Source: a virus. From it: a DNA stretch of 33,024 nt. The translations under genes and the position numbers were made by a program. A model generated the notes under the pieces. That model saw only the letters and a program-made list of their open reading frames with translations, ran no database searches and was not told the DNA's origin. The stretch covers positions 1 to 33,024 of the IMG/VR virus record IMGVR_UViG_3300014499_000019. One strand, given 5' to 3'. Positions 12,973 to 16,707 of the stretch are shown here, piece after piece (position 1 is the first letter of the stretch; every line of letters begins with the position of its first letter).

Positions 12973-15900
12973 TTGTCCACCATAAAGCTACCTCGCAAGA
13001 TCGATCTTCATGCTCAGCGCCGCGCAGTTGAAAAGGAACTGTGCGAGCGCAACCTTTCCGCGTTCATCCGCCGCGCGTGGCATGTGATAGAACCCGGGCA
13101 GCCTTACGTACACAACTGGCACATTGACCTGATATGCGCGCACCTCGAAGCCATTACGGATGGCGTCGTGCTTGAGGACGGCTCGCCTTATAACCGGCTG
13201 CTTATCAATGTGCCGCCTGGCCCGATGCGCCACGACTCGGTCGTCGAAACCGCTCGCGGCCAAGTTGCGCTCAGCGACGTTCGCATAGGCGACTTCGTAC
13301 TGACGCATATGGGGCGATACCGCGAGGTTTCGGCAGTCCACGACCAGGGCATTTTGCCTATCCTGCGCATCGTGACTAATTCGGGGCGCGTCACCCATGC
13401 CGCGCCATCGCATCCGTATCTTACGCCGTGCGGATGGGTAGACGCCAAAGACTTGAGTGTTGGCGACGTGCTAGCCGCAGTGAATCGCCATGAGGATAGA
13501 CCGGGCGTTCGAAGTATCCAGCCCGAAGAAGCACGCCTTCTTGGCTACCTCATAGGCGACGGCTCATTAACGCAAGCGACGGCTGGTTTTACGAATGCCG
13601 ATCGGGAAGTAATTGACGACTTCCGCGCTTGCGCCACTGCTCTCGGTTTTGAAACAGCCGAAAGTTGGCGCAATTCACATTGGCATGTTCGTTTGAATGG
13701 GCGAACGCGCGTCAAGGCGTGGCTTGCTGATCACGGACTTGTCGGCGCGAGTTCTTACACGAAACGGATTCCGGCCGCAGTTATGTCGGCATCCGTCGCA
13801 ACCTTGCGCGAATTTCTCGGCGCCTACTGGACTTGCGACGGGGGTTTCGACGTTAGGCCCATTGGATCGCGCGGATCAAAGTTCCGCGCCTATGCTACGA
13901 CGGTTAGCGAGGGGCTTGCGGATGACCTCGTTGCCGCGCTCGGCCTTGTCGGCATCGAGTCGCGCCTACGCCGTAAGGCGCGGCCGCTTGAAACTGCGTC
14001 GCAACCCGGCGGCGTCTATCGTTCATTCAGTATCGAAGTTCAGAACGAGGCCATGACCGCGCGTCTCGCTGACTTTGGCGGGTTGTGCTCGCGCAAGCGC
14101 GCGCTCGCGGAGCAATGCCGGCGCGGGTTCGATCGCCCGCTATGGAATGATGAAATCGTATCCATCGAGCAATCCGATCCATCTCATTGCCTTTGCCTGA
14201 CGGTCGAGGAGGACCATTCCTTCACATGTTCGGGCATTGCCGTAAAGAACTCGATGAAATCGCTAATATTGAATGTGTTTTGGCCTGCGTGGGAGTGGGG
14301 ACCGCGCAACATGCCGCATCTTCGGTATGTGTGCGCCGCGCATTCGCAAACCTTGGCGGTGCGCGATAGCACCAAAATGCGACGCCTCGTCCAGTCGGAC
14401 TGGTATCATGGATACTGGGGCGATCGCGTCAAACTCATGGGCGATCAAAACGCCAAAACGAAATTCGAGAACAGTGCGACGGGTTTCCGAGAGGCAATTG
14501 CGGCCGGTTCCATTACCGGCGCTCGCGGAGATCGGATTCTTTGTTTCCCGGCTGACGAACTTGTCCACTCCGAAGGAGGCTTATTTCCGATCGGCGCTCT
14601 TGTGCGCGATAGGTCAAAGGTGAAAGTCTGGTCTGCCGATCCGTTGACAGGGGAAACGACGCTAAAACGCATCGAAGGCTGGCATATAAACCCCGCCTCC
14701 GATCTTGTCGAAGTCACACTATCCGATGGCTCGACGTTTCAATGTACGCCAAATCATCGGATTTGGACGCGTTCAGGCTGGGTTGAGGCTGCGCTTTTGC
14801 AACCCGGTCACCGAGTTCCACGTTCGACCATCCCGGATCATGGCGATGGATTTCTTGTCAACGCCATATCTCCTAGCCAAAGCGCGTTGGCTTTCGGAAC
14901 TAGAAAATATCTCAAGGACTTGGGTATCGTTGAGCTTGCTATTTCGCACTTCCATTCCTTTGTGCATATAGCTAGTCTGCCTAATCCCTTCCGTTACGCT
15001 TTTCCAAGTTTTGCCACGCCTAATTTGTTCAATAGTTCCGCATTTCACACCGTATCTTTCCGCAAGTTCGTTGGCGTTGGCTCGGCTCGCGGCGATCGCG
15101 GCAGCATGCACGCGCGTAAGGATAGCGCCCGGACGCTTTTCAAGAAGCGGGAACGTTCCGTGTCGTTTGGCGTCCGCAATGTTCTGAGCGCGCGTTCCAT
15201 ATTCGAGGTTGTCAAGGCGCGCATTATCTCGTGTCCCGTCTCTGTGACAAACCTCTTGGCCTATTGGACACGGCCCTACAAAAGCGCGCAAAACCTCTTG
15301 ATGGACAAAGAGTTGCGTAGCGTGTCCAGCCCAACTGGCATTAAAACGCGGATATCCTTTAGTTTGGCTCAGTTTAAGGATTTTCTCGGGAATAGTAAGC
15401 GTTCCTCTCCCAGTTCGGTTAACGACGCGAGCATGGCTTTTGACGCGGCCAAGATCACTTACGCTGTAAAGCCCTTCAAAACCCTCGATAGGAATCCAGT
15501 TCTCGTTAGGAAGATCGGTCATCGTGCTGAAACCTTCTGCTTGACGGTACAGGACAACCATACATTCTTTGTGGGTAATGGGGAAGGTGTTCTTGTCGCC
15601 AATTGCGACGATCCCCATTCGGTCGAAGGCGCGGCGTCGGACGCCATGCGAAATACAACACTGGAATGGTTCACCGAGGCGGTCCCTACCCGTCTGAACA
15701 ACCCCGCGACGTCCGCTATTGTCGTCATCATGCAGCGGCTGCATGAGGAGGACGTGTCTGGCGTGATCCTGGAGCGCAAGGGCTATGCGGGGCTTTGGGA
15801 CGCCATCATTCTCCCGATGCGCTTCGAAGTGTGGCGGAAAAATCTCCCGACGAAACTCGGATATGTCGACCCGCGTGAAGTGGAAGGCGAGTTGCTATTC

Positions 15901-16707
15901 GAGGAGAGATTCAGCGAAAAGACCGTCACCGATCTTGAGAACTCGCTAGGCCCTTATGCTACTGCCGGCCAGCTTCAACAAACGCCAATGCCTCGTGGCG
16001 GCGGTATCATCAAGGATGAATGGTGGCGGAAATGGCCGGATAATCAGGAATACCCGCCATGTGATTATATTGTCGGTTCACTTGACACCGCATATACTGA
16101 AAAGCAGGAAAACGACTTTTCTGCGATGACGATATGGGGGGTTTTCACGACTTCGTCAAAGGCTACTCCAACGAAGGTTATCACGCGTGAGGGGCAAATC
16201 CTCTCATTCCAAGAGCGAGTTTATCAAGAAGGCGCACCGAATGTCGTCATGATATATGCTTGGCAAGAAAGGCTGGCATTTCCAAATCTAGTCGCTAAAG
16301 TTCTAAAAACATGTCGAGATTGTAGGGTCGACCATCTGCTTATAGAAAACAAAGCAGCTGGAATAAGTGTCGGGCAAGAGTTGCGCCAAGCCCTCGGATC
16401 GGGTTCATTCGGCATACAGCTTGTCGATCCACGCGGAGGCGATAAGGTCGCGCGTCTTTACAGCGTCCAGCATATTTTCTCGGAAATGATGGTTTGGGCT
16501 CCTGACAAAGAATGGGCGGAAATGGTAATAAGGCAAGTGTCGACGTTCCCGAAAGGAAAACACGACGACCTTGTCGACAGTTTATCACAAAGTTTACGTT
16601 ATTTAAGAGACACTGGCATGTTAACGCGTGCCGTCGAGCGCATGGACCAGATCGAACAGGACAGGATTTTCAAAGGGCGCACTCCTGCGCCGTTATATCC
16701 GGGGTAA
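12973..16707 (+). CDS. terL: Large terminase with two inteins (1244-aa precursor; 547-aa spliced ATPase-nuclease)
   Basis: The large terminase pumps DNA into the capsid with its ATPase and cuts it with an RNase H-like nuclease. With both inteins removed the protein would be 547 residues, the usual size. The joins rebuild the Walker A loop VPPG/SMKS (13221/14251) and the Walker B stretch DRIL/CDDPHSVEG (14541/15604). The nuclease acids are visible in GSLDTAY (about 16084), LLIENKAAG (about 16342) and KHDDLVDS (about 16561). It starts with TTG; no better start is available after the preceding stop. Unless both inteins splice, the ATPase motifs are broken and the phage cannot package, so splicing must be efficient or regulated. 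The 3' third is AT-richer than the inteins. Confidence 0.93.
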   Translation: MSTIKLPRKIDLHAQRRAVEKELCERNLSAFIRRAWHVIEPGQPYVHNWHIDLICAHLEAITDGVVLEDGSPYNRLLINVPPGPMRHDSVVETARGQVALSDVRIGDFVLTHMGRYREVSAVHDQGILPILRIVTNSGRVTHAAPSHPYLTPCGWVDAKDLSVGDVLAAVNRHEDRPGVRSIQPEEARLLGYLIGDGSLTQATAGFTNADREVIDDFRACATALGFETAESWRNSHWHVRLNGRTRVKAWLADHGLVGASSYTKRIPAAVMSASVATLREFLGAYWTCDGGFDVRPIGSRGSKFRAYATTVSEGLADDLVAALGLVGIESRLRRKARPLETASQPGGVYRSFSIEVQNEAMTARLADFGGLCSRKRALAEQCRRGFDRPLWNDEIVSIEQSDPSHCLCLTVEEDHSFTCSGIAVKNSMKSLILNVFWPAWEWGPRNMPHLRYVCAAHSQTLAVRDSTKMRRLVQSDWYHGYWGDRVKLMGDQNAKTKFENSATGFREAIAAGSITGARGDRILCFPADELVHSEGGLFPIGALVRDRSKVKVWSADPLTGETTLKRIEGWHINPASDLVEVTLSDGSTFQCTPNHRIWTRSGWVEAALLQPGHRVPRSTIPDHGDGFLVNAISPSQSALAFGTRKYLKDLGIVELAISHFHSFVHIASLPNPFRYAFPSFATPNLFNSSAFHTVSFRKFVGVGSARGDRGSMHARKDSARTLFKKRERSVSFGVRNVLSARSIFEVVKARIISCPVSVTNLLAYWTRPYKSAQNLLMDKELRSVSSPTGIKTRISFSLAQFKDFLGNSKRSSPSSVNDASMAFDAAKITYAVKPFKTLDRNPVLVRKIGHRAETFCLTVQDNHTFFVGNGEGVLVANCDDPHSVEGAASDAMRNTTLEWFTEAVPTRLNNPATSAIVVIMQRLHEEDVSGVILERKGYAGLWDAIILPMRFEVWRKNLPTKLGYVDPREVEGELLFEERFSEKTVTDLENSLGPYATAGQLQQTPMPRGGGIIKDEWWRKWPDNQEYPPCDYIVGSLDTAYTEKQENDFSAMTIWGVFTTSSKATPTKVITREGQILSFQERVYQEGAPNVVMIYAWQERLAFPNLVAKVLKTCRDCRVDHLLIENKAAGISVGQELRQALGSGSFGIQLVDPRGGDKVARLYSVQHIFSEMMVWAPDKEWAEMVIRQVSTFPKGKHDDLVDSLSQSLRYLRDTGMLTRAVERMDQIEQDRIFKGRTPAPLYPG
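13222..14250 (+). other. Intein 1 (343 aa) with LAGLIDADG endonuclease, at Walker A
   Basis: An in-frame protein intron of residues 84-426. Block A begins P-M-R-H-D-S-V-V with Pro where Cys/Ser is usual; block B is GRVTHAAPSHPYLT (His present, usual Thr replaced by Ala); LLGYLIGDG and LGAYWTCDGG are the two LAGLIDADG helices; block F is CLCLTVEEDHSF with Cys at the usual Asp position; block G ends AVKN before Ser. The endonuclease would cut intein-free terL at the Walker A codons. The ends are set by the restored PPG-SMKS motif. Confidence 0.9.
14542..15603 (+). other. Intein 2 (354 aa), splicing domain without in-frame endonuclease, at Walker B
   Basis: Residues 524-877 form the intein. Block A is CFPADELVHSEGG (Cys1), block B is GSTFQCTPNHRIWT with the TxxH pair intact, block F is TFCLTVQDNHTFF and block G ends VLVAN followed by Cys. 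The penultimate His is replaced by Ala. The about 250 residues between blocks B and F match no homing endonuclease in this frame and look like nonsense sequence; that DNA encodes an HNH endonuclease on the other strand. The ends restore DRIL-CDDPHSVEG. Confidence 0.9.
14773..15522 (-). CDS. NUMOD4-HNH homing endonuclease encoded antisense inside intein 2 (249 aa)
   Basis: On the minus strand, ATG at 15522 with AGAAGG about ten bases upstream opens a 249-residue protein. NENWIPIEGFEGLYSVSDLG (residues 6-25) is a NUMOD4 motif. VHQEVLRAFVG ... CHRDGTRDNARLDNLEYGT (about 73-110) is an HNH_3 domain with H93 and N105 in place. Two tandem helix-turn-helix repeats follow, ELAERYGVKCGTIEQIRRG and ALARRYGVDKKSIAMIRDG, each ending in a W-x-S-V-T segment typical of NUMOD-type DNA-binding repeats. 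The gene lies wholly inside the intein, in codon register with terL, so each strand must avoid TTA, CTA and TCA codons. It would be expressed as antisense RNA to terL. The frame stays open upstream to 15744, but the ribosome site and domain start favour 15522. Confidence 0.9.
   Translation of the reverse strand: MTDLPNENWIPIEGFEGLYSVSDLGRVKSHARVVNRTGRGTLTIPEKILKLSQTKGYPRFNASWAGHATQLFVHQEVLRAFVGPCPIGQEVCHRDGTRDNARLDNLEYGTRAQNIADAKRHGTFPLLEKRPGAILTRVHAAAIAASRANANELAERYGVKCGTIEQIRRGKTWKSVTEGIRQTSYMHKGMEVRNSKLNDTQVLEIFSSSESQRALARRYGVDKKSIAMIRDGRTWNSVTGLQKRSLNPA

Follow-up and report, generated by a model that had tools for sequence, protein, structure and literature searches.

In the 33,024-nucleotide stretch of viral DNA analyzed here (the window), the large terminase gene (terL) contains an intein that has no nuclease of its own and carries, on the opposite strand of its spacer, a complete gene for an endonuclease of the homing type. 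Together, the nuclease-less class 1 intein and the antisense NUMOD4-HNH homing endonuclease gene very probably constitute a two-gene mobile element. The case for such an element is made from sequence comparisons, which display the nesting of the two genes and its conservation, the avoidance of stop codons in the terL frame, selection on the endonuclease, sporadic presence among phages, and relatives of the endonuclease gene that adjoin terL in opposite orientation.

In the mechanism envisaged, translation of terL would continue across the entire intein, whose spacer presumably forms a floppy loop, and splicing would restore TerL. The endonuclease would be translated from a minus-strand RNA, beginning at an ATG before block F and using a ribosome-binding site concealed among the codons of that block. 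Cleavage or nicking by the enzyme would follow at the Walker B codons of a terL allele that lacks the intein, and repair would copy the intein together with the endonuclease gene. Splicing of the intein would thus shield the host protein, and the endonuclease would spread the pair.

Organization of the terL Locus

The terL precursor is encoded by a single open frame of 1244 codons (12973-16707, + strand) and includes two inteins. Intein_splicing and PT-HINT matches were obtained from Pfam, and the C-extein is Terminase_6C-like by a match below the curated cut-off. Intein 2 (354 aa; 14542-15603, +) is inserted in the Walker B strand of TerL, between RIL and CDDPHS, and displays the features of a class 1 intein, namely a first residue Cys (C1), CTPNH in block B, ETFCLTV in block F, and a terminal Asn in block G (VAN) followed by C+1. 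Its Hint splicing domain, as delimited by model pLDDT, is divided into an N-terminal part with blocks A and B (intein residues 1-99; 14542-14838, +) and a C-terminal part with blocks F and G (15481-15603, +), between which lies a spacer (14839-15480, +) that is the in-frame reading of the antisense gene.

The antisense gene (14773-15522, − strand), recognized from its ORF, Pfam matches, and a structural model, has an ATG start and a stop codon and encodes a 249-aa NUMOD4-HNH homing-type endonuclease with two C-terminal helix-turn-helix units. A preliminary description had placed this gene wholly within intein 2, with the terL frame open across it in codon register; the ORF and the intein boundaries bear out the placement, and the terL frame indeed runs through it without interruption. 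Splicing sequence left outside the antisense gene amounts to 231 nt on the N-terminal side and 81 nt on the C-terminal side. An upstream alternative start is possible for the mechanically called ORF (323 aa); homologues support the 249-aa start, as does a putative Shine-Dalgarno-like site, AGAAGGT (15532-15538, −), which is located ~9-10 nt upstream of the ATG and is complementary to the Thr-Phe codons of block F.

The other intein of this TerL, intein 1 (13222-14250, +), is inserted at the P-loop, between VPPG and SMKS. It looks like a class 3 intein, given a first residue that is Pro rather than Cys or Ser and an end that reads VKN followed by S; it has in-frame LAGLIDADG matches (6.5e-13) and is absent from relatives L003-L005.

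The Splicing Domain and the Spacer

Profile searches and modeling agree with the initial view that intein 2 retains splicing blocks A, B, F, and G and has no in-frame endonuclease. The modeled Hint part matches the Npu DnaE and Mtu RecA inteins, with pLDDT mostly >90 at N-terminal residues 1-90, 71 at residues 91-100, and ~90 or more at C-terminal residues 321-354. Intein 2 is best regarded as a class 1 intein whose Hint domain is intact and which is predicted to splice. Conversely, intein residues 100-313, a stretch inside the antisense gene, have an AlphaFold pLDDT of ~30, with values of ~24-38 over residues 101-310, and a Pfam search of 27 inteins in the intein frame returned no nuclease match and no match of any kind in the spacer. 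The sense spacer is thus predicted, from sequence and model alike, to be a disordered "shadow" of the endonuclease that is required only to stay open.

The Antisense Endonuclease

The minus-frame product had been described as a NUMOD4-HNH_3 endonuclease with two helix-turn-helix repeats, and Pfam matches to NUMOD4 (6.6e-15) and HNH_3 (1.1e-10) both exceed the gathering cut-off; the repeats appear in the model as helices 137-177 and 199-239, with weak Pfam support (HTH_3, 0.04). The model was built from 27 relatives and has a mean pLDDT of 89.8. Its best PDB match is I-HmuI (1u3e; 8e-20 by profile, 3e-7 by fold), which shares the NUMOD4-HNH-helix-turn-helix architecture, although identity to the window protein is ~23% over the structural alignment. 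The I-HmuI gene resides in a phage group I intron. NUMOD4 and HNH_3 were matched in 27 of 27 endonucleases, across which residues H93, N105, and N114 of the HNH region are invariant, and the antisense product is predicted to be an I-HmuI-like homing endonuclease of the NUMOD4-HNH type. The longest nested endonuclease (L128:3977-4960; 328 aa, in a 440-aa intein) has apparent extra C-terminal helix-turn-helix repeats.

A role other than homing has to be weighed for a protein of this kind, since HNH proteins are known components of packaging machines (Kala et al., 2014, as cited in PMC4422536) and may be encoded beside terminase genes. The constant association with terL, which the nearest free-standing relatives also adjoin, would suit a packaging cofactor working with TerL. 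Nevertheless, the NUMOD4 and helix-turn-helix architecture and the I-HmuI match are traits of homing endonucleases, the gene is linked to an intein at a single site, and it is missing from that site in most close terL relatives, such that packaging does not need it there; a cofactor is therefore considered highly improbable.

Distribution Among Phages

The preliminary description treated the antisense gene as a single oddity, a view that no longer holds: the gene is one of a widespread class, whose relatives include free-standing and degraded genes. A search of the terL inteins of related phages, which had been advised at the outset, recovered the same nested antisense gene as well as a mini-intein without an endonuclease. 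The nested arrangement is now represented by 38 sequences including the window (at least 37 others), comprising a first set of 33 and five more, among them L225 with a truncated endonuclease; two edge fragments (L015 and L105) are additional. Thirty-one endonucleases remain under ~90% identity, that is, 28 together with L222, L223/L224 (taken as one), and L226. In 38 of 38 sequences, the host intein interrupts TerL at the Walker B strand and the endonuclease gene is antisense and codon-aligned. The exact insertion point shifts by zero to three residues among members (CDDP, CVDDP, CLVDDP, CIIIDDP), and the GC content of the nested gene ranges from 31% to 65%.

Nearly all members derive from metagenome contigs; a few records are apparent prophages of isolate genomes, as judged from IMG identifiers, and one member is an isolate with a complete genome, Escherichia phage BUCT618 (L001, OM735461.1). 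The homologous terL intein of BUCT618 carries an antisense endonuclease 45% identical to that of the window. In the record of this genome (923-1891), the terminase is entered as a single 789-aa protein named only "terminase large subunit," and the intein and the antisense endonuclease both lack an annotation, the latter because the precursor, read straight through, passes for one large terminase; the omission is a warning for annotation more generally.

The window protein as a lone query found no match among viral contigs, and the viral-contig scan was run with an alignment of the window protein and its BUCT618 counterpart; the intein alignment offered no stretch conserved enough for use as a scan query. 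E. coli genomes held no near match to BUCT618 terL, and a scan of genome contigs gave three distant matches, antisense in none.

Codon Register and Avoided Codons

With the two genes codon-aligned, a terL-frame stop can arise only from a TTA, CTA, or TCA codon of the endonuclease. All three codons can be replaced synonymously, so that any such gene can be carried with its protein unchanged, and the codon alignment of the nested genes is attributed to this being the antisense register in which synonymous changes alone remove all sense stops. The early estimate that about 35 Leu and Ser codons of the window gene avoid the three triplets is exact (19 Leu and 16 Ser, with zero of the three), against 6.6-8.0 expected, the lower figure being derived from the codon usage of its own terL (log10 P ~ −4 by base composition). 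Across 33 nested genes, none of 1005 Leu and Ser codons is TTA, CTA, or TCA, compared with ~180 expected from the terL codon usage of each phage, whereas in 20 free-standing relatives recovered by the same scan they make up 105 of 447 such codons (110 expected by composition).

It had also been suggested that GC-rich DNA eased the capture of the gene by keeping in-register antisense frames open. This suggestion finds no support in the AT-rich members. Whereas the aligned register is free of stops in every nested gene, the other antisense registers hold 3-40 (5 and 20 in the window gene); in L108, L114, L106, L107, L099, and L128, with 31-40% GC, there are 4-40 stops per other register and 0 in the aligned one. 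A chance open frame in GC-rich DNA is ruled out by these members, which are open solely in the aligned register, and the frame is evidently kept open by avoidance of three codons and not by composition. Active maintenance of the open sense frame is supported by these sequence patterns.

That avoidance is a consequence of nesting is best seen in neighbors in the tree, where codon use tracks the nested or free state: the forbidden codons account for 14 of 28 in free L089 vs 0 of 19 in nested L087, 3 of 19 in free L115 vs 0 of 38 in nested L099, and 18 of 33 in free L094 vs 0 of 40 in nested L128. The chance expectations above, like the substitution tests below, treat sequences as unrelated; given the effect size and these paired comparisons, relatedness is unlikely to matter.

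Selection on the Two Frames

Substitution rates at codon positions 1, 2, and 3 of the endonuclease frame are 0.31, 0.22, and 0.55, respectively (31 pairs), and the terL extein and flanking splicing blocks have an identical position pattern in the terL frame. The window gene is likewise constrained in comparison with L003, L004, and L005. Identity of the endonuclease exceeds that of its shadow in 39 of 39 pairs (means of 63% vs 38%). As changes fall mainly at third positions and the endonuclease is the more conserved reading, selection is taken to act on the antisense protein, with the spacer held mainly to stay open, and the endonuclease is, on these comparisons, under purifying selection.

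The same data bear on two further explanations. Were the sense spacer a functional domain and the antisense ORF its by-product, a sense frame open in every member would be understandable, but sense identity falls far below antisense identity in every pair, the spacer has neither a Pfam match nor a predicted structure, and the antisense product comes from a large known family that also occurs free-standing; the probability of this explanation is negligible. Alternatively, the antisense frame could be a decayed endonuclease, a dead relic for which the open sense frame alone matters now. Single copies do decay: in L225, unlike L224, endonuclease position 87 is a nonsense codon, a change that amounts to Phe to Leu in the intein frame, which stays open, and part of the HNH region is missing from L114, so some copies are probably dead. 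For the class as a whole, however, the relic explanation is very unlikely in view of the accumulation of changes at endonuclease third positions (0.55 vs 0.22 at second positions), the conservation of the three HNH residues over deep divergence, and the constraint on the window gene. The L225 copy (L225:4001-4258) is prophage-like, and its C-extein diverges from that of L224 further downstream.

Mobility and Empty Sites

The intein is absent from 80 of the 80 closest terL relatives that were retrieved alongside the window group. Alleles in L262 and L263, which are 81-84% identical to members L091/L109/L112, have the exact site empty, and 70% identical alleles in L264-L266 have an empty site with a natural Cys at +1. 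At the Walker B site of L272 (L272:2596-3000), there is a 135-aa mini-intein for which an endonuclease was recognized in no frame. Such scattered occurrence, together with precisely empty sites in close relatives, is the apparent signature of a mobile (homing) element. The divergence of the endonucleases is correlated with that of TerL (Mantel r 0.74), and much of the spread may therefore be vertical; discordant pairs also exist, such as L001-L088 (0.69 endonuclease vs 0.41 TerL identity).

Free-Standing Relatives Beside terL

Free-standing relatives of the nested genes adjoin intein-free terL genes and are oriented opposite to them. Those in L089 (3995-4597), L094 (3837-4550), and L115/L116 (3995-4531 in L115) are 38-52% identical to their best nested match and are located 6-72 nt upstream of terL, and the gene in L111 (3995-4435) overlaps the terL 3′ end. 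An Rfam search around eight free-standing relatives found no group I introns. In a maximum-likelihood tree, the free-standing genes fall among the nested ones: L089 groups with L087 (support 89), L115 with L099/L103 (support 100), and L094 with L128/L100/L101/L104 (support 74), and L111 is placed beside the L093-L112 group. This interleaving indicates that the gene probably moved between nested and terL-adjacent states more than once, in one direction or the other.

A broader proposal, put forward tentatively and at distinctly lower confidence than the two-gene element itself, is that these elements are a distinct recurrent class formed more than once, each time from a nuclease-less TerL Walker B mini-intein and a free-standing, terL-targeting antisense endonuclease gene. 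Each capture would then have been followed by synonymous purging of TTA, CTA, and TCA and by placement of a ribosome-binding site in block F, and opposing transcription would temper terL expression.

The location of the free-standing genes beside terL, and not within it, could also be read to mean that the endonuclease targets a sequence other than the empty terL site, which here is only predicted as the target, and that the intein is a safe harbor rather than a homing partner. A harbor would not require the constant host gene and site observed despite TerL identity down to ~22%, and this reading is accordingly judged unlikely.

Start Signals and Expression

On the sense strand, the position of the endonuclease ATG corresponds to a conserved His codon immediately before block F. 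A Shine-Dalgarno-like stretch at the usual spacing precedes 25 of 33 predicted starts, whereas the figure for the remaining ATGs of these loci is 14%; the automatically assigned start is uncertain for L114 and L084. In most members, this stretch is complementary to the block F Thr/Ser-Phe/Tyr codons, and the Thr/Ser codon has C as its third base in 24 of 33 members, against 10.1 predicted from the individual terL genes. The bias suggests that a synonymous choice in the splicing block may serve translation of the opposite gene. A promoter scan of the minus strand found no convincing candidate; the one stronger promoter-like site would be useless for the endonuclease start because it lies inside the gene. 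The endonuclease gene may nonetheless have a promoter of its own, its placement may uncouple endonuclease dose from terminase dose, and its RNA may act on terL.

Comparison With Known Systems

As an intein-based homing element, the pair is of a known kind; the gene arrangement is new. So-called fractured inteins, in which a split host gene reportedly has an endonuclease gene between its halves, are similar in that the endonuclease is a separate gene tied to the intein, but here the host frame is continuous. TerL inteins of mycobacteriophages carry in-frame homing endonuclease domains, with TerL1-e at Walker B (PMC5050341). These inteins share with intein 2 the Hint domain, the conserved TerL motif as insertion site, the sporadic distribution, and an endonuclease between blocks B and F, whereas the window endonuclease is a separate antisense gene and its intein polypeptide has no nuclease. 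No published intein with an antisense endonuclease gene was found in the open-access literature searched, as had been supposed. For group I introns of nuclear rDNA, mentioned in the same context, homing endonuclease genes in antisense orientation are documented, and their antisense expression has been demonstrated (PMC9548176), whereas that of the window gene is a prediction. There too the endonuclease gene is opposite to the host gene strand and inside a self-splicing element, although that element is an RNA intron, has no overlapping protein frame, and encodes a His-Cys enzyme.

Two further near precedents have an HNH gene that is out of frame with a host gene whose own frame stays open. A terL intein of brucellaphages contains an out-of-frame HNH gene that is given in the forward direction and whose product is described as having a zinc-ribbon domain (PMC4422536). 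Both of its frames are open, but the text of that paper sets it apart from the antisense gene here: an R63L change at codon position 2 of the HNH gene is silent in terL (PMC4422536), so the gene cannot sit in the codon-aligned antisense register. Similarly, the ShiLan domain (PMC11855218) is an HNH gene hidden in another frame of a phage methylase insertion whose host frame is open; unlike the window gene, it is on the host strand, and no splicing domain was detected. Same-strand, shifted-frame placement of the ShiLan or brucellaphage type occurs in no member, all of which are opposite-strand and codon-aligned.

These comparisons indicate that an intein and its endonuclease need not share one polypeptide and may be separate genes on opposite strands, both constrained. 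The class also provides a natural case of dual-strand coding with a countable cost of three forbidden codons, for which the paired free-standing relatives act as controls. Likewise, the mini-inteins and the nested, decayed, and terL-adjacent free copies around one site bear on how inteins gain and lose endonucleases.

A second form of hidden endonuclease was observed at Walker B in the TerL inteins of L278 (1834-3000) and L291 (631-1683), in which HNH genes (L278:1937-2956; L291:812-1606) with zinc-finger-like cysteine pairs occupy a shifted frame of the intein's own strand. Given these same-strand, out-of-frame genes, hidden endonuclease genes in inteins take at least two forms.
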